From an uncultured Monoglobus sp. (GTDB lineage Bacteria; Bacillota; Clostridia; Monoglobales; Monoglobaceae), in assembly GCA_947585115.1 (NCBI GenBank), contig CANPWW010000004.1, positions 1-64,000 on the forward strand: a DNA stretch of 64,000 nucleotides. Reading direction: 5' to 3'. The notes beneath the pieces were generated by a model that saw only the letters and a program-made list of their open reading frames with translations, searched no databases and was not told where the DNA came from. Below, piece by piece: positions 3,551-46,058 of the stretch (position 1 is the first letter of the stretch; the number at the start of each line of letters is the position of its first letter). The position numbers and the translations under genes are program-made.

Positions 3551-4718
3551 TGAAATCAAAAAAAATATTGCTGAGATCCTGCCCGAAATAATTGATTTGC
3601 GGCATAGAATACATATGCGCCCGGAGCTGTCATTCGAGGAACATGAAACGGCGGCTTTGGTTTGCTCGGTTCTTGACAAATACGGAATAGAATATCGTTC
3701 CGGTATAGCGGGAACAGGAGTTCTCGGTATAATAAAAGGCGAAAAAAGCGGCGCGGGGAAAACTTTGCTAATACGCGCCGATATGGACGCGCTGCCGGTT
3801 TGCGAAAAAGGCGGATGCGCCTTTGCTTCCGAAAAACAAGGCATTATGCACGCGTGCGGACACGATATTCACACATCGATACTTTTATGCTGCGCTGTCG
3901 CGCTTAATAAAATGCGCGGCAAATTCTCGGGTACCGTCAAACTTATGTTCCAGCCGGGCGAGGAAACGGCCGGCGGTGCCGAGCCGATGATAAAGGCCGG
4001 CGTTCTGAAAAACCCGAAGGTTGACTCCTGCGTCGCCCTCCATGTGGAGCCGTCAATGAAAGTCGGCACGGCGGGTTTTAAAACGGGACCGTTTTACGCC
4101 TGCCCCGATGAGTTTGATATTGTGATAAAGGGCAGAGGCGGACACGCGGCCACGCCGCAAAAATGCGCCGACCCCGTTATTGCCGCGGCGCAGCTCATAA
4201 CAGCAATCGAAAATCTGCCGACGAGACTTTTAAGCCCTCTTGATCCCGCGGCTGTCTCGGTCTGCATGTTAAACGGGGGCACCGCGTATAATATTATCCC
4301 CGATTCCGTGCATATCGGCGGCTCGGTCAGGGTATTTTCGGATACGGATCGCGACACGATCGAAAACGCTATAGGAAAAACCGCGGATAATATTTGCGCG
4401 ATATACGGCGCGGAGTGTGAATATGAGTACCGCAGGTTGTTCCTTCCTCTTATAAACGACGAAATTACAACCGAGCTTTTGAAAAAGTCAGCCGAAAAAT
4501 ATCTTGAGACACAAATGTTGTCGGAACCGACCATGGCGGGAGAGGATTTTTCATATCTGACCGACGCTGTCAGATCGTCAGCATTGTTCTGGCTCGGATG
4601 CACCGAGGATGATAGCGAGGGATATCCGCTTCACAGCGAGCGTTTTTTTGCCTCCGACAAATGTATTGAATACGGCGCCGAAATTTTTTGCGATTACGCG
4701 ATCAGTTTTTTGAATTAA
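3543..4718 (+). CDS. M20 family amidohydrolase (hippurate/IAA-amino acid hydrolase-like)
   Basis: LRHRIHMRPELSFEEHET, MHACGHDIHTS, FQPGEE; ATG overlaps RNase M5 stop by 8 nt. Confidence 0.9.
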   Translation: MVDEIKKNIAEILPEIIDLRHRIHMRPELSFEEHETAALVCSVLDKYGIEYRSGIAGTGVLGIIKGEKSGAGKTLLIRADMDALPVCEKGGCAFASEKQGIMHACGHDIHTSILLCCAVALNKMRGKFSGTVKLMFQPGEETAGGAEPMIKAGVLKNPKVDSCVALHVEPSMKVGTAGFKTGPFYACPDEFDIVIKGRGGHAATPQKCADPVIAAAQLITAIENLPTRLLSPLDPAAVSVCMLNGGTAYNIIPDSVHIGGSVRVFSDTDRDTIENAIGKTADNICAIYGAECEYEYRRLFLPLINDEITTELLKKSAEKYLETQMLSEPTMAGEDFSYLTDAVRSSALFWLGCTEDDSEGYPLHSERFFASDKCIEYGAEIFCDYAISFLN

Positions 4719-35074: not shown

Positions 35075-37168
35075 ATGGCAATCTACAAATGCGCGGTATG
35101 CGGCGCGATTTTCGACGAGGAAAAAGAAGGCAAATCAATATCCGAAATATCGGTCTGCCCGGTTTGCAAACAGCCCGCGTCAAATTTTGTTTTGGCCGAG
35201 GAGACAAAGCCCGCGCCCGCTGCCGCGTTTGAGGGCGATCTCGCCTACGATCCCGCATATCTCCGCACCGGAACCGACAGCCGCTATATGGACGCGATCC
35301 ACCAAATGGCAGTCAGCGGCAAGTATATCAGCGCCGCGATGGGTACCCTTCTTCCGCTGCCGTCGTGGGACGATATTTTATTGCTCGGCGCTCAGCTGGA
35401 TCCGCCGCCCATGAATGACGGAGACGATATTGACACAAAGACCGTTATCGGCAAGCACGCCAAACATCCGATGGTTCTTGAAAGCCCGGTCTATATTTCA
35501 CACATGTCGTTCGGCGCGCTCTCAAAAGAGGTAAAAATAGCGCTGGCGAAGGGCTCCGCCGCGGCGAAAACAGCCATGTGCAGCGGCGAGGGCGGAATCC
35601 TGCCCGAAGAAAAGGCCGCGGCATATAAGTACATATTTGAGTACATACCCAACAAATACAGCGTGACCGACGAGAATCTCAGAACATCAGACGCGATAGA
35701 GATCAAGATCGGGCAGGGCACCAAGCCCGGCATGGGCGGACACCTTCCCGGAGAAAAGGTGACGCCCGAGGTCGCAAAGATTCGCGGCAAGAAAACCGGC
35801 GAGGACATTCAAAGCCCGAGCAAATTCCCCGAGATCAATTCAAAAGAAGATCTCAGGGCAATGGTTGACATGCTGCGCGAACGCTCGGGCGGCAGACCGA
35901 TAGGCATAAAGATCGCGGCAGGCAGGATCGAACGCGACCTTGAGCACTGCGTATACGCGAACCCAGATTTTATCACGATAGACGGGCGCGGAGGCGCCAC
36001 CGGCTCAAGCCCCCTGATGCTCCGTGATTCGACGAGCGTGCCCACGATATACGCGCTGAGCCGCGCGAGAAAATATCTTGACTCGGTCGGCTCGGATATA
36101 GCGTTGGTTATAACTGGCGGGCTGAGAGTATCGTCCGACTTCGCGAAGGCTCTGGCTATGGGAGCCGACGCCGTGGCTATAGCAAGCGCGGGACTTATCG
36201 CGGCGGCATGTCAGCAGTACAGAATATGCGGCAGCGGAAACTGCCCCGTGGGCGTCGCCACTCAGGACCCCGAGCTGCGCAAGAGGCTCAATGTAGACCC
36301 TGCGGCGCAGAGGGTCGCGAATTTCCTGAACGTATCGCTGGAGGAGCTTAAAACCTTCGCGAGGGTTACCGGACATAAGTCCGTGCACGATCTGTCGCTT
36401 GACGATCTTATCACGATCAACGAGGATATCGCCAAATATACCGGCATCGCACACGGCGGTCTGCCGACCGGAACAGAGAATATAAAGAAAACAAAGGAGG
36501 CAAAATCAATGAAAAAATATAAATGCAAGGTATGCGGAGAAATTTTTGAGGTCCCCGAGGGAACCGAGCCCGTCTGCCCGCTCTGTAAATCAACGGGAGA
36601 CAAGCTTGAGGAGATCAAAGACACACCCAAAGCGGGAAAATACGCGGGAACTCAGACCGAGAAGAATCTGCACGAGGCGTTCGCGGGCGAGTCGATGGCG
36701 CGAAACAAGTACACTTATTTCGCCTCAATAGCCAAAAAAGAGGGCTACGAGCAGATGGCGGCGCTGTTTTTAAAGACCGCCGAAAATGAGAAAGAGCACG
36801 CCAAGCTGTGGTTTAAAGAGCTTGACGGTATCGGAAACACTCCCGAAAATCTTAAAGCTGCGGCCGACGGCGAAAACTACGAGTGGACCGATATGTACGA
36901 TGGGTTCGCTGTTACCGCCGACAAGGAGGGTTTTCCGGAGCTCGCCAAAAAATTCAGAATGGTCGCGGCGATAGAAAAGCACCACGAGGAACGCTACAGA
37001 GCCTTACTCAAAAATATCGAAACCGCGCAGGTATTTGAAAAGAGCGAGGTCAAGGTGTGGGAGTGCAGAAACTGCGGACATATCATTGTCGGCACAAAGG
37101 CGCCCGAGCTGTGCCCCGTATGCCTCCATCCGCAAAGCTTTTTTGAGATCAACTGTGAAAATTATTAA
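35075..37168 (+). CDS. Fusion: rubredoxin - GltB-type FMN/Fe-S glutamate synthase-like domain - rubredoxin - rubrerythrin - rubredoxin
   Basis: Single uninterrupted frame: [34 protein letters not shown]-like region, [84 protein letters not shown]. Confidence 0.93.
36493..36511 (+). promoter_or_regulatory. Internal Shine-Dalgarno and in-frame ATG within fusion ORF
   Basis: AAAGGAGG caaaatca ATG AAA AAA; ATG at 36509 is in frame (codon 479) and begins the [11 protein letters not shown] rubredoxin-rubrerythrin half. Confidence 0.75.
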
Positions 37169-37551: not shown

Positions 37552-39516
37552 TCAATTTATAGTGTAAAATTTTATTTCGGGATTTTCTATAAAAACGTCG
37601 GGCGAGGTTCCGATAAAATCATTGTATTGTGTCTCGGTCGAGAAATTCATTTTCGCGCACTTTCTGAGCTCGAATATATCGGCGCCTTCTGCGTACAGGC
37701 GTTTTATTATCTCTCTGAGACTTTCTTCAAAATGCACGCGTCCGCTTTGCGAGATATTTCCCGAGGCGTCCCTCGGGCTGGCAAGGCGCAGACTTATACT
37801 TCCGTATATGCAGCCGTTTTCGATGTTAGAGCGCGCTTTTGCTCCGCACTTTCCTCTAACATAGTACGGTTCGCCGTCCGCGGTTTCGAAAAATATCGGC
37901 TCATCGGTTTTTCCGAACGCGGTGTTTAACAGACTGCATTCATCGCCGCCGAGATATAACGGAGACGCGCCGACAGGAAAAAGCAGGCCTCCGTTCAGTC
38001 CGCTTTTATTCACCTCCGCCATACAAGCGGAACCGTCTGTTGCGGTCACAAACTCCAGCAGATTTGTTTCAAAGCTGACAACTGCCGACTTCTCGGAAAA
38101 TAACAGCTCGTAATATCTGGCGGGGCTTTCCTCCATCGCGGGCTCGACCGATGTCAAATATTCTCTTGAATTTTCCGCGGCGCACAGCTTTGTCTCGGGC
38201 CTCACCTCATTGGCGCTCAAGAAACTTTTGCATATTTCCTCCGCCTCTGCCGAACCGACGCCCAGCAAATCATTCGAGATCACCAGAAGTTTCATGTGTG
38301 ACAAAGCCGCCGACTTGCCGAGATATGACTTTGATTTTTCAAGCGCCTCAAAAATATTACGCGCTCCGACGGTTATATTGCTGACCGCCTTTTTTTCTGA
38401 GCCGCTTTCTCCGCTTTCATCATCGGTCTCATCCGATGTTTCCGCGCTTGTGTCGGAGCCGTTTTTAAGGGGATTTGAAAACTGGAGCGTAAACTCATAT
38501 CCTGCTTCGGTATCAGCGGGATCTACGCCTGCCGCTATGATATATGCGGTGTTTTCCACGTCGCGCGCATCTCCGCAGCCCGCGAGCGGAGTTATAATTA
38601 AGGCGCAGAGCAAAACCGTCGCGGCGCTTTTCCCGAATGTCTTGCTGCGGAATCCTAAGCTTGCCAGTAGTTTTTTGACCGCTGTCAAAAGAGCCGATAT
38701 ATAAAGTATCGCCGACGCTGTCTTTATAATTATATAAAGCGCGTCAAGGCGCATGTTGAGGCGGCTCATTCCGGAGAACCCCGCCATGACGCGCGTAAGG
38801 TCAGCGCCGCTGAGCGCGGCGTATTCCGCGTTTATCGACAAAAACAGAACGATATAATATAAAGCGTAAAGAGACGCTCCGATAACAGCAACTATTAAAA
38901 TATGCTTTGATTTTCGCTCTTCCTCAAACAAAAGCAGATACGCCGCAGGCAATATAATTCCCGAAAACGCGAAAAGATTTCTTAAAGCAGATAAAGCGAC
39001 TGTTCCGGCTCCGTTTCCCAGGAGCGGCGCCGCGTTGTACACGTCGCAGCGAGGCAGGGCGTTTATGATGATAAAAATCAGACCCGCGGCAATAACGGGT
39101 ACGCACAGGCCGTGCAGCTTAAACATCGCTCCCTTGCCTCCCCGCGTAATTATAAACACAGCCGCGGCGAGCACAATAAGTATCAGTATCCACGTTGTGT
39201 TTAAATACTCGCTTCGGCCGAGATCGTTTATCAACGAGTATGAATAATAGATCGCCTCGCAAATAAAATACGCCGCCAAAACAGCGAATAAAGGTTTTTT
39301 AACCGCGCGGCGCTCAATTAATTCGATTATCGCGCCTCGAAGCGGATATATCACTAATGCGATGATCGAAAAAAGCAAAGCGGATATTGCCGCCGCAAGC
39401 GCGGCGGCGCTGCCGTTTTCAATGAGCAGAAATCCCGAATAATCGAGAAACAGCTTCGCCGTAACGCAGTTCAGTGTCAGACAGCTCAGATTAAAATTAA
39501 ATCTCCTCATAAACAT
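37552..39516 (-). CDS. Fused GerB-type permease + Ger(x)C-type germination protein
   Basis: N-terminal ~330 aa multi-TM (GerAB/APC-like) continuing into lipobox-like LLCALIITPLAGCGDARDVENTAYIIAAGVD and a GerAC-like domain; TGATG overlap with upstream gerA-type gene. Confidence 0.8.
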   Translation of the reverse strand: MFMRRFNFNLSCLTLNCVTAKLFLDYSGFLLIENGSAAALAAAISALLFSIIALVIYPLRGAIIELIERRAVKKPLFAVLAAYFICEAIYYSYSLINDLGRSEYLNTTWILILIVLAAAVFIITRGGKGAMFKLHGLCVPVIAAGLIFIIINALPRCDVYNAAPLLGNGAGTVALSALRNLFAFSGIILPAAYLLLFEEERKSKHILIVAVIGASLYALYYIVLFLSINAEYAALSGADLTRVMAGFSGMSRLNMRLDALYIIIKTASAILYISALLTAVKKLLASLGFRSKTFGKSAATVLLCALIITPLAGCGDARDVENTAYIIAAGVDPADTEAGYEFTLQFSNPLKNGSDTSAETSDETDDESGESGSEKKAVSNITVGARNIFEALEKSKSYLGKSAALSHMKLLVISNDLLGVGSAEAEEICKSFLSANEVRPETKLCAAENSREYLTSVEPAMEESPARYYELLFSEKSAVVSFETNLLEFVTATDGSACMAEVNKSGLNGGLLFPVGASPLYLGGDECSLLNTAFGKTDEPIFFETADGEPYYVRGKCGAKARSNIENGCIYGSISLRLASPRDASGNISQSGRVHFEESLREIIKRLYAEGADIFELRKCAKMNFSTETQYNDFIGTSPDVFIENPEIKFYTIN

Positions 39517-41069
39517 CAATCCTTATCGCGGGGCTTATTATTTTTGTCATACTTCCACTTTCGGCTGATCTCGGGCTGCTTGATCTCGTCCTGCGGCATC
39601 AGCTCGGGCGGACGCTTTTCCTTTTTCCAGATCGGCTTTACCAGCACCGACTCGGAGCTGTGCCCGCCCGCCCTGTAGCGGCTGAGGAACGGCACCCCGA
39701 AGGTCGTGGTGGACGCGAGCAGGCTGAGCGTGGCTATGACTGCGGCCGTGAGACCCGGCAATCCGAAAAAGTACGCGGCGAAAATATATATGAATTTAAG
39801 CACGCTGAGCGAGCGCGACAGCGACAGCGTCGGAGTCGAAAAAGAGCCGATCCCTCCCAGCGAGACGATAATTATCAGCAGCGGGCTGACTATGCTTGCC
39901 TCGACCGCGGCTTGTCCCAAAATAAGACCGCCGATTATACCGAGCGTGCTGCCTATGGGATTCGGCACCCTGACCGACGCCTCTTTGATAAGCTCAAACG
40001 ACAGCTCCATAAGCAAAAGCTCGAGTATCAGAGGGAACGGAACCTTTTCGCGTGTGGCGGATATGGCTATCAGCAGATCTGTTGGCAGCACTTCCTGATG
40101 ATAGAGCATAACCGCGATAAACAGCGCGGACAGCAGCACAGAAACGGCCATGCCGAACAGACGCACCAGACGCATAAGATTCGCCTCGGGAACCCTGACA
40201 TAGTTGTCTTCGGTGGCCTCGATAAGATCCATTGTCGTGGTTGGCAATATGAGCGCGAACGGGCTGCCCTGCACCACAACGGCGACTTTTCCGTCCGCGA
40301 GCATAGCGGCAACTCTGTCGGGGCGCTCGGTCTTGAGCGTGCGCGTCATCGGGAAATATGTCGAGTCCTCGATCATCATCTCAACGTCGCTTGACGAAAA
40401 AATATACTCGGTGTCGATACCCTTCAGCCGCCGCGCAACCTCCGCCACAATATCGGGATTTGCTATATTGCGAAGATACATCACGGCACACGGGACCTTG
40501 TTGCTGTTGCCGACCGGTATGTTGACGGCTGTAGTATTCGGCGAGCGCAGTATCTTGCGCACAAGCGCAATATTTGTCATTATCGACTCCGAGAACGCCT
40601 CCTGGGGCCCGGCGAGGCTGACTTCCTGCGTCGGCGCGTCTACGCCTCGGTTATCCCAGCCCTTGACATCAGCAGAAAAGCAGCAGGCGCAGCCGTCAAT
40701 AAACACCGCGCAGTCGCCGAACGACACCTTTTGGCCCACCTCGTCGTAGTCGTTGAGTATCGAAAGCGGCGCCACCGAAATTATCCTCTCTGTCACAATC
40801 GCGCGGCGCCCGCGCTCGGGCGCGTCAAACTTATCGCAGGTCAAAAGCGAGCGCAAAATATCGCGGTTTAAGTAGTTCTGGTTCGTCATGCCGTCGTAGT
40901 ATATCAAAAAGCCGTCGGCCGTCTCGTTTTTGAACCCGATCTTAAACTCGCGCAGATTAAAATCCATGTTGTTGTCGGGGTCAAACATCTCTTTAATTAT
41001 TCTTTTGTTTTCGGATATTGACGCGTTGATCACTTGTATCACCGAATATATTTTTGCCTTCGCTCCCAT
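39516..41069 (-). CDS. GerA-family spore germination protein
   Basis: DGMTNQNYLNRDILRSL, DCAVFIDGCACCFSADVKGWDNRGVDAPTQEVSLAGPQEAFSE, VPNPIGSTLGIIGGLILGQAAVEA; start set at MGAKAKIYS. Confidence 0.92.
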   Translation of the reverse strand: MGAKAKIYSVIQVINASISENKRIIKEMFDPDNNMDFNLREFKIGFKNETADGFLIYYDGMTNQNYLNRDILRSLLTCDKFDAPERGRRAIVTERIISVAPLSILNDYDEVGQKVSFGDCAVFIDGCACCFSADVKGWDNRGVDAPTQEVSLAGPQEAFSESIMTNIALVRKILRSPNTTAVNIPVGNSNKVPCAVMYLRNIANPDIVAEVARRLKGIDTEYIFSSSDVEMMIEDSTYFPMTRTLKTERPDRVAAMLADGKVAVVVQGSPFALILPTTTMDLIEATEDNYVRVPEANLMRLVRLFGMAVSVLLSALFIAVMLYHQEVLPTDLLIAISATREKVPFPLILELLLMELSFELIKEASVRVPNPIGSTLGIIGGLILGQAAVEASIVSPLLIIIVSLGGIGSFSTPTLSLSRSLSVLKFIYIFAAYFFGLPGLTAAVIATLSLLASTTTFGVPFLSRYRAGGHSSESVLVKPIWKKEKRPPELMPQDEIKQPEISRKWKYDKNNKPRDKD

Positions 41070-41084
41070 AATTATACATTTAGG

Positions 41085-41113
41085 TTGACTAATCCAAAAG
41101 TTTTGTATATAAT
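41085..41113 (+). promoter_or_regulatory. Sigma-A promoter of flavodoxin-family gene
   Basis: TTGACT - 17 nt - TATAAT. Confidence 0.75.
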
Positions 41114-41151
41114 AAATATGTACAAAATTTGTTATTGAAAGGAAGATATAC

Positions 41152-41775
41152 ATGAAGGTTTTATTGATCAACGGAAGCCCCCACGCGAAGGGCTGCACAT
41201 ACACCGCGCTCACGATCGCGGCCGAAGAGCTCAACAAAAACGGCGTTGAGACCGAGATAATCCAGGTCGGCGCGAAACCTATCGTTGGCTGTATCGGCTG
41301 CGGCGCTTGCGCCAAGCTCGGCAAATGTCAATTCGACAGCGACCCGGTCAACGAGACCGCCGCGAAGTGCGCCGATGCCGACGGAATAATCATCGGAACG
41401 CCCGTGCATTACGCGGCGTCATCTGGCGCGATAAAGTCTTTCACCGACAGACTTTTCTACTCGGCGGGAAGCAAGCTTACATATAAGCCCGGCGCGGTTG
41501 TTGCCAGCTGCCGCAGAGGCGGCGCTTCGGCGGCTCTCGATCAGATGAGCAAGTATTTCACGATCAACCAGATGCCTGTTGTCAGCTCGAACTACTGGAA
41601 CATGGTCCACGGCAACACGCCCGACGAGGTAATGCAGGACGCCGAGGGCGTTCAGACAATGCGGCTGCTCGGCAGAAATATGGCATGGCTCCTCAAAGCG
41701 ATAGACGCCGCCAAGCAAAGCGGCATAAACCACACCGAACCAGAGCCGAAAGAAAAAACCAACTTTATCAGATAG
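41152..41775 (+). CDS. NADPH-dependent FMN reductase / flavodoxin family protein
   Basis: MKVLLINGSPHAKGCTYTAL, GCIGCGACAKLGKCQFD, GTPVHYAASSGAIKSFTDRLFY. Confidence 0.9.
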   Translation: MKVLLINGSPHAKGCTYTALTIAAEELNKNGVETEIIQVGAKPIVGCIGCGACAKLGKCQFDSDPVNETAAKCADADGIIIGTPVHYAASSGAIKSFTDRLFYSAGSKLTYKPGAVVASCRRGGASAALDQMSKYFTINQMPVVSSNYWNMVHGNTPDEVMQDAEGVQTMRLLGRNMAWLLKAIDAAKQSGINHTEPEPKEKTNFIR

Positions 41776-41790
41776 TAGCAACATATTGTC

Positions 41791-41815
41791 AAAGACCCGC
41801 AATCGGGTCTTTTTT
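41791..41815 (+). terminator. Rho-independent terminator
   Basis: AAAGACCC-gcaatc-GGGTCTTTTTT. Confidence 0.85.
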
Positions 41816-41824
41816 ATTTTATGC

Positions 41825-41853
41825 TTGACAAACAAATTCTTATAAAATATAAT
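41825..41853 (+). promoter_or_regulatory. Perfect consensus sigma-A promoter of the hydrolase/condensation operon
   Basis: TTGACA - 17 nt - TATAAT. Confidence 0.85.
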
Positions 41854-41933: not shown

Positions 41934-42872
41934 ATGTTATATATTTTTTTGGCAATTATTCTGATCGCTCTCGGTTTTATGATCGGGGCGGGAGTGCTGT
42001 TTATAAAAACCATACCGCGCAGCGGCAGCAGCGCGTCGGCGACAAAAATGTCGGGCGGCTCATGGGACAAGCACAGGGTTTTGCTTAAAGAGAGCCGCGA
42101 ATGGCTGGACGCGGCCAAGTGTGAGAATATGAGCATTTCGAGCTTTGACGGGATAAAGCTCGCGGGGTTTTACTATCCCGCAGCTAGACCGAACGGCTGT
42201 CTGATAGCGGCTTTTAACGGCTATCGCTCGGATTCGAGGAGCCAATTCAGCCATATAACGCGATACTTAAACGGGCTCGGCTTTGACGTTGCTTTGATCG
42301 ACGACAGGGCCCACGGCGAAAGCGGCGGAAAATATGTGGGCTTCGGAGCTCTCGACAGATATGACTGTCAAAAATGGGCCGAATATCTTGACGAAAAATT
42401 CGGCGGCAAACGAAAGATATACTTATACGGCGTTTCCATGGGAGCGGCGACAGTGCTGATGGTGAGCGGCCTGAAACTCCCCGATTCGGTCAAGGGCATC
42501 ATTGCCGACTGCGGCTACACATCGGCATACGATGTGTTCAAGCATGTTTTAAACAAATGGTACCACCTGCCGTCGTTTCCGCTATTGCAGATATCCAATC
42601 TATACTGCCGCGTTTTCGCGAAGTACGGCTACAAGGACGCGAGCTCGCTTGAGGCGGTCAAAAGCTCTGCCCTTCCTCTGCTCGTTATACACGGCGAGAA
42701 CGACACGTTTGTACCGTCTTATATGGCGCCCGAGATCTATGATGCGTCCGGCTCAAAATACAAAAAACTATTGATAATAAAAAACGCGGCTCACGCGGAA
42801 AGCTATTTTATCGACACCGAAAGCTACAGAAAAACCGTTGCGGAATTCATTGACAAGACAAAAAATTTATAA
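41934..42872 (+). CDS. Membrane-anchored alpha/beta hydrolase
   Basis: N-terminal TM helix; DDRAHGESGGKYVGFGALDRYD, YGVSMGAATVLM (GxSxG), IHGENDTFVP. Confidence 0.88.
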   Translation: MLYIFLAIILIALGFMIGAGVLFIKTIPRSGSSASATKMSGGSWDKHRVLLKESREWLDAAKCENMSISSFDGIKLAGFYYPAARPNGCLIAAFNGYRSDSRSQFSHITRYLNGLGFDVALIDDRAHGESGGKYVGFGALDRYDCQKWAEYLDEKFGGKRKIYLYGVSMGAATVLMVSGLKLPDSVKGIIADCGYTSAYDVFKHVLNKWYHLPSFPLLQISNLYCRVFAKYGYKDASSLEAVKSSALPLLVIHGENDTFVPSYMAPEIYDASGSKYKKLLIIKNAAHAESYFIDTESYRKTVAEFIDKTKNL

Positions 42873-42896
42873 TTTTAATAAGGCAAGGTGATTATT

Positions 42897-44294
42897 TTGG
42901 CTGAGAAAACAAAAACTTATCCCTTAACTCCGGCTCAAAAAATGCACTTTTACACACAGCTGCAATGCTCGGGACATCCCGAGGTACTCAACATAGGAAC
43001 AAGCATTTTTATGAACGGCGAAATGGATTTTGAGGCGCTGCGCGACGCGTTTCTGAAATCATACGACAGGTACGAGGCCGCGCATATAAGGTTCCGCAAG
43101 GACAAAAACGGCGATATATGCCAATATCTCTCGAGTGAGCCCATGAACGAGGCTGGATTTCTTGACTTCGCCGCATGGGGAAAAACCCAGGAGGAAGCCG
43201 AGACGGAGCTCAAGCGCCTGACGACAATACCGATGGAGCGCTTTGACTCCCAGATGTTCAGACTCTACTACGTGAGAATGCCCAATGGCTACACCGGCGT
43301 GTTCTTTTTGGTCGACCACATGGCGTGGGATTCGTCGTCTATCATCGTGTTTATAAGCGACGTTATCGAGATATACTGCAATGCTCTGTATGATACGCCG
43401 TACCCCAAGGACCTGCGCTCGTATATACAGTCTCTCGAAAAGGACTTAAAATACGCGGGCAGCAAAGCCGAGGAGCGCGACAGGCAGTTCTGGGAGGAGA
43501 CCGTGCTGTCGGACGAGCCGATATTCACCGATATTCTCGGCCCGTCAAGGCTGGACAACGCGCGCAAGGAAAGCGGCGATCCCGACAAACGCAGCGCGAA
43601 GGTCACGTCTCAGACCGTTGTGGCGGACATATGCAACTTCTCGCTCGAGGAGGAGCCTTCAAACAGACTGATGGAATACTGCAAACAAAAGAACGTTCCT
43701 ATGGTCTGTCTGCTGATCTCGGCGCTTCGTACTTATCTCTCAAAATTCAACAGATACGCGGAGGACATAAGCATAAAGACGACCGTGTCGCGGCGCGGCA
43801 CAGTGCTTGAGAAAAAGAGCGGCGGCACAAGGATACACTTCTTCCCGTTTAGAATGAAGTTCAGCAACAGCATAAAATATATCGACTCGATCAGAAAGAT
43901 ACAGGAGATGCAGAACAAAATCTTCAGGCACGCCAACTACGACCCGATAAAGCTTAACGGCGAGATCTGCAAGAGGTTCGGGAACCAGTCCGGAGAGAGC
44001 TACGATTCGGTTTCGCTCACGTATCAGCCCATGTCATTCCGCGAGAGCAACGACATGCTCAAGGACATAGATTATGAGGCCAAGTGGCTTTCAAACGGAG
44101 TCGCTGCGCAGCCGTACTATCTGACGGTCATGCATAACCCCGAGACCCGCGGTCTTGACTTTTTCTGGGAATATCAAAAAGGCGCGGTAACGCCCGAGCA
44201 GCTGGAGTACATCTACTATTACCTCTGCAAGATACTATTCGAGGTGATCGAGGATGACGAGCGCACCATCAACGAAATAATAGAAACGGTATAA
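42897..44294 (+). CDS. Stand-alone condensation (NRPS C-like) domain protein
   Basis: YPLTPAQKMHFY; degenerate HHxxxDG motif as VDHMAWDSS; TTG start at 42897 with AAGGTG upstream (GTG at 42888 is an alternative). Confidence 0.8.
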   Translation: MAEKTKTYPLTPAQKMHFYTQLQCSGHPEVLNIGTSIFMNGEMDFEALRDAFLKSYDRYEAAHIRFRKDKNGDICQYLSSEPMNEAGFLDFAAWGKTQEEAETELKRLTTIPMERFDSQMFRLYYVRMPNGYTGVFFLVDHMAWDSSSIIVFISDVIEIYCNALYDTPYPKDLRSYIQSLEKDLKYAGSKAEERDRQFWEETVLSDEPIFTDILGPSRLDNARKESGDPDKRSAKVTSQTVVADICNFSLEEEPSNRLMEYCKQKNVPMVCLLISALRTYLSKFNRYAEDISIKTTVSRRGTVLEKKSGGTRIHFFPFRMKFSNSIKYIDSIRKIQEMQNKIFRHANYDPIKLNGEICKRFGNQSGESYDSVSLTYQPMSFRESNDMLKDIDYEAKWLSNGVAAQPYYLTVMHNPETRGLDFFWEYQKGAVTPEQLEYIYYYLCKILFEVIEDDERTINEIIETV

Positions 44295-44319
44295 TTTTAT
44301 ATAAGAAAGGTTGATAGAA

Positions 44320-44547
44320 ATGTTTGACGAAATCAAAGAAATAATTCTGGAGTACACCGAAACGGAACCCGACGAGATCACAGAAGAATCAAAATTCATT
44401 GAGGACTTGGGCATGAACTCGTACAACATCATGTGCGCGGTCGGCGACCTTGAGGACGCTTTTGACATTGAGGTAAACGAGAGCGACGTCGCGGGCATGC
44501 GGACCCTGGGCGACGTTGTTGAGTACGTCAAGTCGAAGCAAGGCTGA
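44320..44547 (+). CDS. Acyl/peptidyl carrier protein
   Basis: 75 aa; FIEDLGMNSYNIMCAVGDLEDAFDIEV with candidate phosphopantetheine Ser. Confidence 0.88.
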   Translation: MFDEIKEIILEYTETEPDEITEESKFIEDLGMNSYNIMCAVGDLEDAFDIEVNESDVAGMRTLGDVVEYVKSKQG

Positions 44548-44561
44548 TTGGAGGGATAGTT

Positions 44562-46058
44562 TTGGACGGGATCAATTCGATAAAGGATATCGTGTACGAC
44601 GCCGCAGAAAAATACGGCGACAACCCCTATCTCAGATACAAATCGGGCAGAGAGATCATTGACAAGTCGTTTAACCGCACCAAAAGGGACAGCGACGCTT
44701 TCGGCGCCGCGCTGCTGAAAAAGTTCGGAGACAAGCCGGTCCATGTGGCGGTGATCGGCGGAACGAGCTATGAGTGGATAATCACATTCCTGGGAACCGC
44801 GATAAGCGGCAACGTTATAGTGCCTCTCGACAAGGAATCGGAAAGCATAGACGACATGATGCAGAGAGCGGACGTGAATGTTCTGGTATATGACGACGCA
44901 TTCAAAGAAAAGGCGCTGAGCGCCGCGGTCAAATGTCCTAAAATCGAGCTTACTCTCAACATGAGAGACGAGCTGTATAATTTTATAAAGACCTTTGACG
45001 GGAAAGCCCCGAACAAGGACATCGACTGCGACAATATGTGCGCCATTCTTTACACATCGGGAACCACCGGAAAGAGCAAGGGCGTTATGCTGACGCAAAG
45101 AAACATCGCCGACAACGCGACCTGCATTGACGCGGGCGAACAGCCCGGCGATCGCATGATGACCGTGCTGCCCATACACCACGCGTTTTGCTTCACCTGT
45201 GACATACTTCTCGGCATGCACGGCGGAATGTGCGTATGCGTCAACGACTCGATCATGAGGGTTGCGCGGAACCTGCTGCTGTTTAAGCCGCACATCATGC
45301 TGGCAGTGCCTATGATCTTCGCGTCAATGCTCAAGGGCGTTCAAGCGGCGGCAGAACAAAAGCCTGAAACACCCAAACCCGACATTGCCAAGGCCGCGTT
45401 CGGAGGCTGCCTCAGAACGCTGTACAGCGGCGGCGCGTATCTGAATCCCAACATCGTCACAGGATTTAACGAATTCGGCATAAAAGTGCTCCAAGGTTAC
45501 GGCATGAGCGAGTGCTCGCCAAGGATCAGCTTCAACTCAAAATTTGAGTCAAAGCCCAACTCGCTGGGAAAAGTGGTTCCCAACTGCGAGGCAAGGATCA
45601 AAGACGGAGAGATACAGGTGCGCGGCTCCAGCGTGATGCTCGGATATTACAAGGACGAGGAGCGGACCCGCGAGGCGTTCACCGAGGACGGCTGGCTCAG
45701 AACAGGCGATCTTGGAACTTTAGATGACGATAACTTCCTGTTCATGACGGGCAGGGCCAAAAATCTGATTATTCTGTCTAACGGTGAGAATGTTTCCGCC
45801 GAGGAGCTTGAGAACATGTTCGACGGATTTCCCGAGGTGGCGGAGATTGTAGTTTACGGAAATGACGACGTGATAACCGCGGAAATTTATCTTAACCCCG
45901 ACATGGATAAAGATGAGGCCAAACTCAGCACAGACAGAAAAATAACGGAAATAAACAGGGGTATCCCGATGTACAAGCGGATAAACGCGGTCGTATACCG
46001 AGACGAGCCGTTTCCCAAAACATCGTCGCACAAAATTATACGCCCGAACTTGAAGTAA
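44562..46058 (+). CDS. AMP-binding (acyl/aminoacyl-adenylate forming) ligase
   Basis: ILYTSGTTGKSKGVMLTQRN, GYGMSECSP, GWLRTGDLG, PKTSSHKIIR; TTG start behind GGAGGG. Confidence 0.92.
   Translation: MDGINSIKDIVYDAAEKYGDNPYLRYKSGREIIDKSFNRTKRDSDAFGAALLKKFGDKPVHVAVIGGTSYEWIITFLGTAISGNVIVPLDKESESIDDMMQRADVNVLVYDDAFKEKALSAAVKCPKIELTLNMRDELYNFIKTFDGKAPNKDIDCDNMCAILYTSGTTGKSKGVMLTQRNIADNATCIDAGEQPGDRMMTVLPIHHAFCFTCDILLGMHGGMCVCVNDSIMRVARNLLLFKPHIMLAVPMIFASMLKGVQAAAEQKPETPKPDIAKAAFGGCLRTLYSGGAYLNPNIVTGFNEFGIKVLQGYGMSECSPRISFNSKFESKPNSLGKVVPNCEARIKDGEIQVRGSSVMLGYYKDEERTREAFTEDGWLRTGDLGTLDDDNFLFMTGRAKNLIILSNGENVSAEELENMFDGFPEVAEIVVYGNDDVITAEIYLNPDMDKDEAKLSTDRKITEINRGIPMYKRINAVVYRDEPFPKTSSHKIIRPNLK

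Follow-up and report, generated by a model that had tools for sequence, protein, structure and literature searches.

A probable fatty acid amide biosynthetic operon in Monoglobus begins with a predicted membrane-anchored hydrolase gene

Introduction

Fatty acid amide (FAA) clusters encode a discrete adenylating enzyme, an acyl carrier protein (ACP) and a condensation (C) domain that takes free amines (PMC13142362). FAA clusters of gut Clostridia were the subject of Chang et al. (2021, Nat Microbiol, doi 10.1038/s41564-021-00887-y, as cited in PMC13142362). The known family joins fatty acids to small amines, giving signalling lipids that resemble human ones, and human G protein-coupled receptors are targets of the FAAs made by gut Clostridia (PMC13142362). 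In Coprococcus eutactus, the OaaA-OaaACP-OaaC system makes oleoyl aminovaleric acid, with OaaC as the reconstituted FAA-forming enzyme (PMC13142362). The crystal structure of OaaC, the stand-alone C domain of the C. eutactus FAA pathway, is available as PDB entry 12KH; the protein has an insertion of 17 residues that includes a helix (Gln214-His224), and the motif of FAA C domains is (D/H)HxxxDS (PMC13142362). In these systems the acyl group is passed to a free amine instead of an amino acid held on a carrier, and product release comes with the condensation step (PMC13142362), which makes a thioesterase unnecessary. Among C domains, the class nearest to the FAA enzymes is that of the NRPS starter condensation domains (CStarter; PMC13142362). 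Our literature search, which did not take in the cluster maps in Chang et al. 2021, found nothing further on clusters of this type, and the 2026 preprint PMC13142362 does not contain the word 'hydrolase' in its main text.

Here we compare these systems with a locus from an uncultured Monoglobus sp. that had been read, in a preliminary description, as a minimal NRPS-like operon made of discrete proteins.

Results

The window, the 64,000-nucleotide stretch of DNA that was analysed, contains four intact open reading frames, all on the + strand, that make up one predicted transcription unit in the order hydrolase, C domain, carrier, ligase. The features of the locus, in window coordinates, are the following:

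41791..41812, + strand: terminator-like hairpin of the upstream flavodoxin-type gene (9-pair stem, then a T-run)
41825..41853, + strand: predicted sigma-70 type promoter, TTGACA-N17-TATAAT (12/12 consensus positions, by consensus match alone)
41934..42872, + strand: predicted membrane-anchored alpha/beta hydrolase, 312 aa, esterase/monoglyceride-lipase-like (Pfam Hydrolase_4, 1.6e-18)
42897..44294, + strand: free-standing FAA-type condensation domain, motif DHMAWDS, TTG start (Pfam Condensation, 1.2e-38)
44320..44547, + strand: acyl carrier protein, 75 aa, phosphopantetheine site LGMNSYN (PP-binding, 1.5e-10)
44562..46058, + strand: stand-alone fatty-acyl-AMP ligase / adenylation enzyme, 498 aa, TTG start, C-terminal PKTSSHKIIR (AMP-binding, 2.6e-58)

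This layout agrees with the preliminary description, which had reported four co-directional genes spaced by 15–26 nt: the four frames, each uninterrupted, span 41934 to 46058, and the gaps between them, measured from the assigned starts, are 24, 25 and 14 nt, essentially the same. The three motifs that it had named, DHMAWDS, LGMNSYN and PKTSSHKIIR, are all present, and the TTG starts that it had proposed for two of the genes are borne out for the C gene (42897) and the ligase gene (44562), both of which are preceded by a Shine-Dalgarno-like sequence and have ATG at the matching codons in four relatives (L009–L012). The hairpin ahead of the operon also occurs in the closest relatives (L005–L008). 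Eight relatives keep the promoter, and because it persists although the adjoining upstream DNA is unrelated in four of them (L009–L012), the four genes look like a unit separate from the flavodoxin-type gene. The proteins of the window and of L009 are 74–88% identical, and the differences between their genes amount to 0.38–0.47 at third codon positions versus 0.06–0.21 at positions 1 and 2, a third-position bias indicating that the operon genes are maintained as protein-coding.

Elsewhere in the window, positions 35075–37168 (+) encode a 697-aa fusion of a glutamate-synthase FMN domain with rubrerythrin and rubredoxin-like domains, which is probably a redox or oxygen-stress protein. The region 37552–41324 (−), just before the operon, holds two open reading frames that by eye resemble spore germination (GerA/GerK-type) proteins.

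The C domain had a sole sequence match in the PDB, chain 12kh_A, which extended over its full length (459 residues, E = 1.5e-95). Identity to OaaC is only ~35%, so the substrates of the two enzymes may differ. The DHMAWDS motif had been flagged as a variant; it indeed departs from HHxxxDG, but it is not an oddity, as it fits the FAA signature (D/H)HxxxDS. Motifs among relatives of the window protein include DHMIMDS, DHMVCDS and DHMTMDA. A degenerate or dead active site was considered and ruled out by the match to the published class motif (PMC13142362).

Phylogeny places the window protein on the same side as OaaC. In a tree of 32 C-domain sequences, comprising 19 FAA-like rows (OaaC included) and 13 ordinary C domains but no annotated CStarter set, the FAA-like rows split from the ordinary ones with support of 100/99, and a nested group of 18 rows again unites the window protein with OaaC (97/94). 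Some long branches in this tree, such as L032, are less certainly placed. The insertion segment is present in the window protein, OaaC and 17 further FAA-like rows, and it is absent from the 13 ordinary NRPS C domains. At 47 FAA-diagnostic positions, which were defined without the Monoglobus rows, the window protein has the FAA residue in 40 cases, compared with 0–6 for ordinary C domains. A new kind of minimal NRPS was ruled out by the OaaC match, the tree and the insertion. We also observed a distinct branch of the family in which the FAA-like C domains carry an HHxxxDA motif (L028, L029 and L031).

Curated models class the carrier as an ACP rather than a peptidyl carrier: it scores 69.7 bits against the ACP model NF002150, above the cut-off of 66. 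The top NCBIfam model for the ligase is PRK06187 (long-chain-fatty-acid--CoA ligase) at 222.8 bits, below the cut-off of 476, and the amino-acid adenylation model gives 123 bits against a cut-off of 317.4. A fatty-acid substrate class of the ligase is supported by these family models.

FAA-cluster membership of the window operon is well supported by sequence comparison, and we place at roughly 90% the probability that it is an FAA biosynthetic cluster like those of human-gut Clostridia with respect to ACP priming, ACP loading and amide formation. In this pathway, a cellular PPTase would attach phosphopantetheine to the ACP serine (step 1), the ligase would adenylate a free fatty acid and load it onto the ACP (step 2), and the C domain would pass the ACP-bound acyl group to a small amine that diffuses freely, giving an N-acyl amide (step 3). 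These three steps have been shown biochemically for the C. eutactus homologue (PMC13142362). An N-acylated, lipid-like product of a fatty-acyl ligase had been guessed in the preliminary description, and homology to FAA clusters supports that guess. Its term 'NRPS-like' is apt only as the FAA literature uses it, for systems whose acceptor is a free amine instead of an amino acid on a carrier.

Cellular partners for the proposed steps were sought in the genome that the window comes from (2.34 Mb, 90% complete). It encodes a PPTase of the same superfamily as the Sfp-type enzymes of three related loci (L055–L057), together with an AcpS fusion. At L057, the Sfp-type PPTase gene (3933–4493) lies within the FAA operon, between the ACP and ligase genes, and at L055 and L056 a PPTase gene immediately precedes the hydrolase gene; this linkage fits the need for a phosphopantetheinylated carrier. 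For the amine, the 90%-complete genome gave no match to decarboxylase family PF00282 and two matches to the Orn/Lys/Arg decarboxylase family PF01276, which decide nothing because amines can come from outside. Two short contigs of the same genome (C67 and C105; loci L001, L002 and L004) carry NRPS-type frames of 1427 and 2634 aa with HHxxxDG motifs.

Most of the nearest named relatives are Monoglobus metagenome assemblies whose isolate names contain 'Lapin', and these closest matches are probably from rabbit gut. The cluster occurs in seven of the eight genus members sampled, the genome of the window included; the single-contig genome G152, the eighth, has none. Across the class, an FAA-like C domain was found in 20/391 sampled genomes, and the other 12 of 32 C-domain matches are weaker and lie mostly within long multidomain proteins. 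The gene order C-ACP-ligase is conserved in nearly all relatives; the contig of L031 stops within the C gene.

The hydrolase gene lies directly upstream of the C gene at every Monoglobus-type locus and at five loci (L020–L024) that belong to three other families. It is not adjacent to the C gene in the OaaC-like loci (L025–L027 and L030), nor in L028, L029 and L032, with the absence less sure at L028, where upstream sequence is short, and at L029, where the start of the C gene is apparently incomplete. The hydrolase-bearing C domains formed one group in 38% of bootstrap trees and are not shown to be a single clade. In one FAA operon, we observed an SCP2 sterol/lipid-transfer-like protein encoded directly upstream of the hydrolase gene (L059:10220–10708).

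The earlier call of a membrane-anchored hydrolase is upheld by the Hydrolase_4 match, a hydrophobic helix predicted at residues 4–22 of the N-terminus, and a conserved Ser-Asp-His set (Ser168, Asp257 and His287), which is invariant across 13 family members. In a fold search with the AF2 model (mean pLDDT 90), the best match was the archaeal esterase Pf2001 of P. furiosus (TM-score 0.70/0.79), followed by monoglyceride lipases; the thioesterase DcsB also appeared among the matches, lower down. The charges that flank the membrane helix do not decide its orientation; for this protein they lean to a cytoplasmic catalytic domain, which would be a poorer fit with a lipase acting on exogenous lipid. 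Members of the hydrolase family are found in 123/391 Clostridia genomes (E ≤ 1e-20), and in a tree the cluster-linked copies do not form one clade, which suggests that the gene was recruited more than once, or was lost or moved in places. With the family this common in Clostridia and its cluster-linked copies scattered, we ruled out an FAA-specific hydrolase family.

We hypothesize a fourth step, in which the membrane-anchored hydrolase, as an esterase or lipase at the membrane, would free fatty acid from glycerides or other esters for use by the ligase. Judged from fold and gene order, we give about even odds to the hydrolase supplying the fatty acid by lipolysis. The fuller reading, a four-gene FAA cluster with its own membrane-anchored lipase that would turn fatty acids from diet or host lipids, or from the cell's own membrane, directly into N-acyl amide signals, is tentative, and we hold it to be somewhat short of an even chance.

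Other roles for the hydrolase within an FAA cluster must be weighed against the lipase proposal. It could be a proofreading (type II) thioesterase that clears misacylated carrier, as its operon position beside a carrier system, its alpha/beta hydrolase fold with conserved Ser-Asp-His, the charge pattern leaning to a cytoplasmic catalytic domain and the DcsB fold match would all allow. We nonetheless consider this role unlikely: an esterase and monoglyceride lipases match the protein best in both sequence and fold, no hydrolase gene adjoins the C gene in the OaaC-like branch, and the window protein has a membrane anchor, which typical type II thioesterases lack. An amidase that degrades or tunes N-acyl amides, or an unrelated role in the envelope, is more doubtful still. 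A membrane-anchored serine hydrolase co-transcribed with amide-forming genes would suit such a function, and family members do occur without the cluster, but co-expression of a synthase with the enzyme that degrades its product would be futile, and the fold matches are esterases and lipases. A true minimal NRPS, in which an acyl starter would be joined to an amino acid and the hydrolase would release the product, accords with the Pfam labels (C, carrier and AMP-binding) but is highly improbable given a single carrier that scores as an ACP, a ligase that scores best as a long-chain fatty-acid ligase and a C domain that the tree places with the FAA enzymes and not with those of NRPSs.

Discussion

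Our analysis extends the FAA family to Monoglobus-type bacteria and indicates a form of the cluster with a fixed hydrolase gene. The roles assigned earlier to the four genes, namely activation, tethering, condensation and hydrolysis, stand by homology, but the novelty implied for them does not: homologous clusters, the FAA clusters of gut Clostridia, are already linked to a known product. The FAA system is thus a known one, and the novelty here is modest, consisting in the less-described hydrolase that some members of the family encode as the first gene of the operon. If this enzyme supplies the acyl group, a source of fatty acids for FAA signals would be identified, and if the lipase reading is true, lipolysis and amide synthesis would be united in a single operon.

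Compared with canonical NRPS systems, the window locus lacks the HHxxxDG motif and an amino-acid-specific adenylation domain, having instead DHMAWDS and a ligase that scores with fatty-acid ligases; it also has no multidomain protein with an acceptor carrier, consisting of single stand-alone domains with one carrier. CStarter domains typically use acyl-CoA and act on carrier-bound amino acids. They share an acyl donor with FAA C domains, whereas the window C domain is a stand-alone protein paired with an ACP. The closest counterparts of the hydrolase by both sequence and fold are Pf2001 and the monoglyceride lipases (5g59 and 6eic), from which the window protein differs in its N-terminal membrane helix and in overall sequence (~14–22% identity).

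As far as the FAA clusters of Chang et al. (2021) are presented in PMC13142362, the window locus shares with them an origin in gut Clostridia, the use of discrete enzymes and the logic of joining a fatty acyl group to an amine. The likeness to the C. eutactus FAA cluster extends to stand-alone ligase, ACP and C domain, the DHxxxDS motif, the FAA-specific insertion and homology over the full length of the C domain. Whereas PMC13142362 describes three proteins for C. eutactus, the Monoglobus cluster adds a predicted membrane-anchored hydrolase as its first gene.
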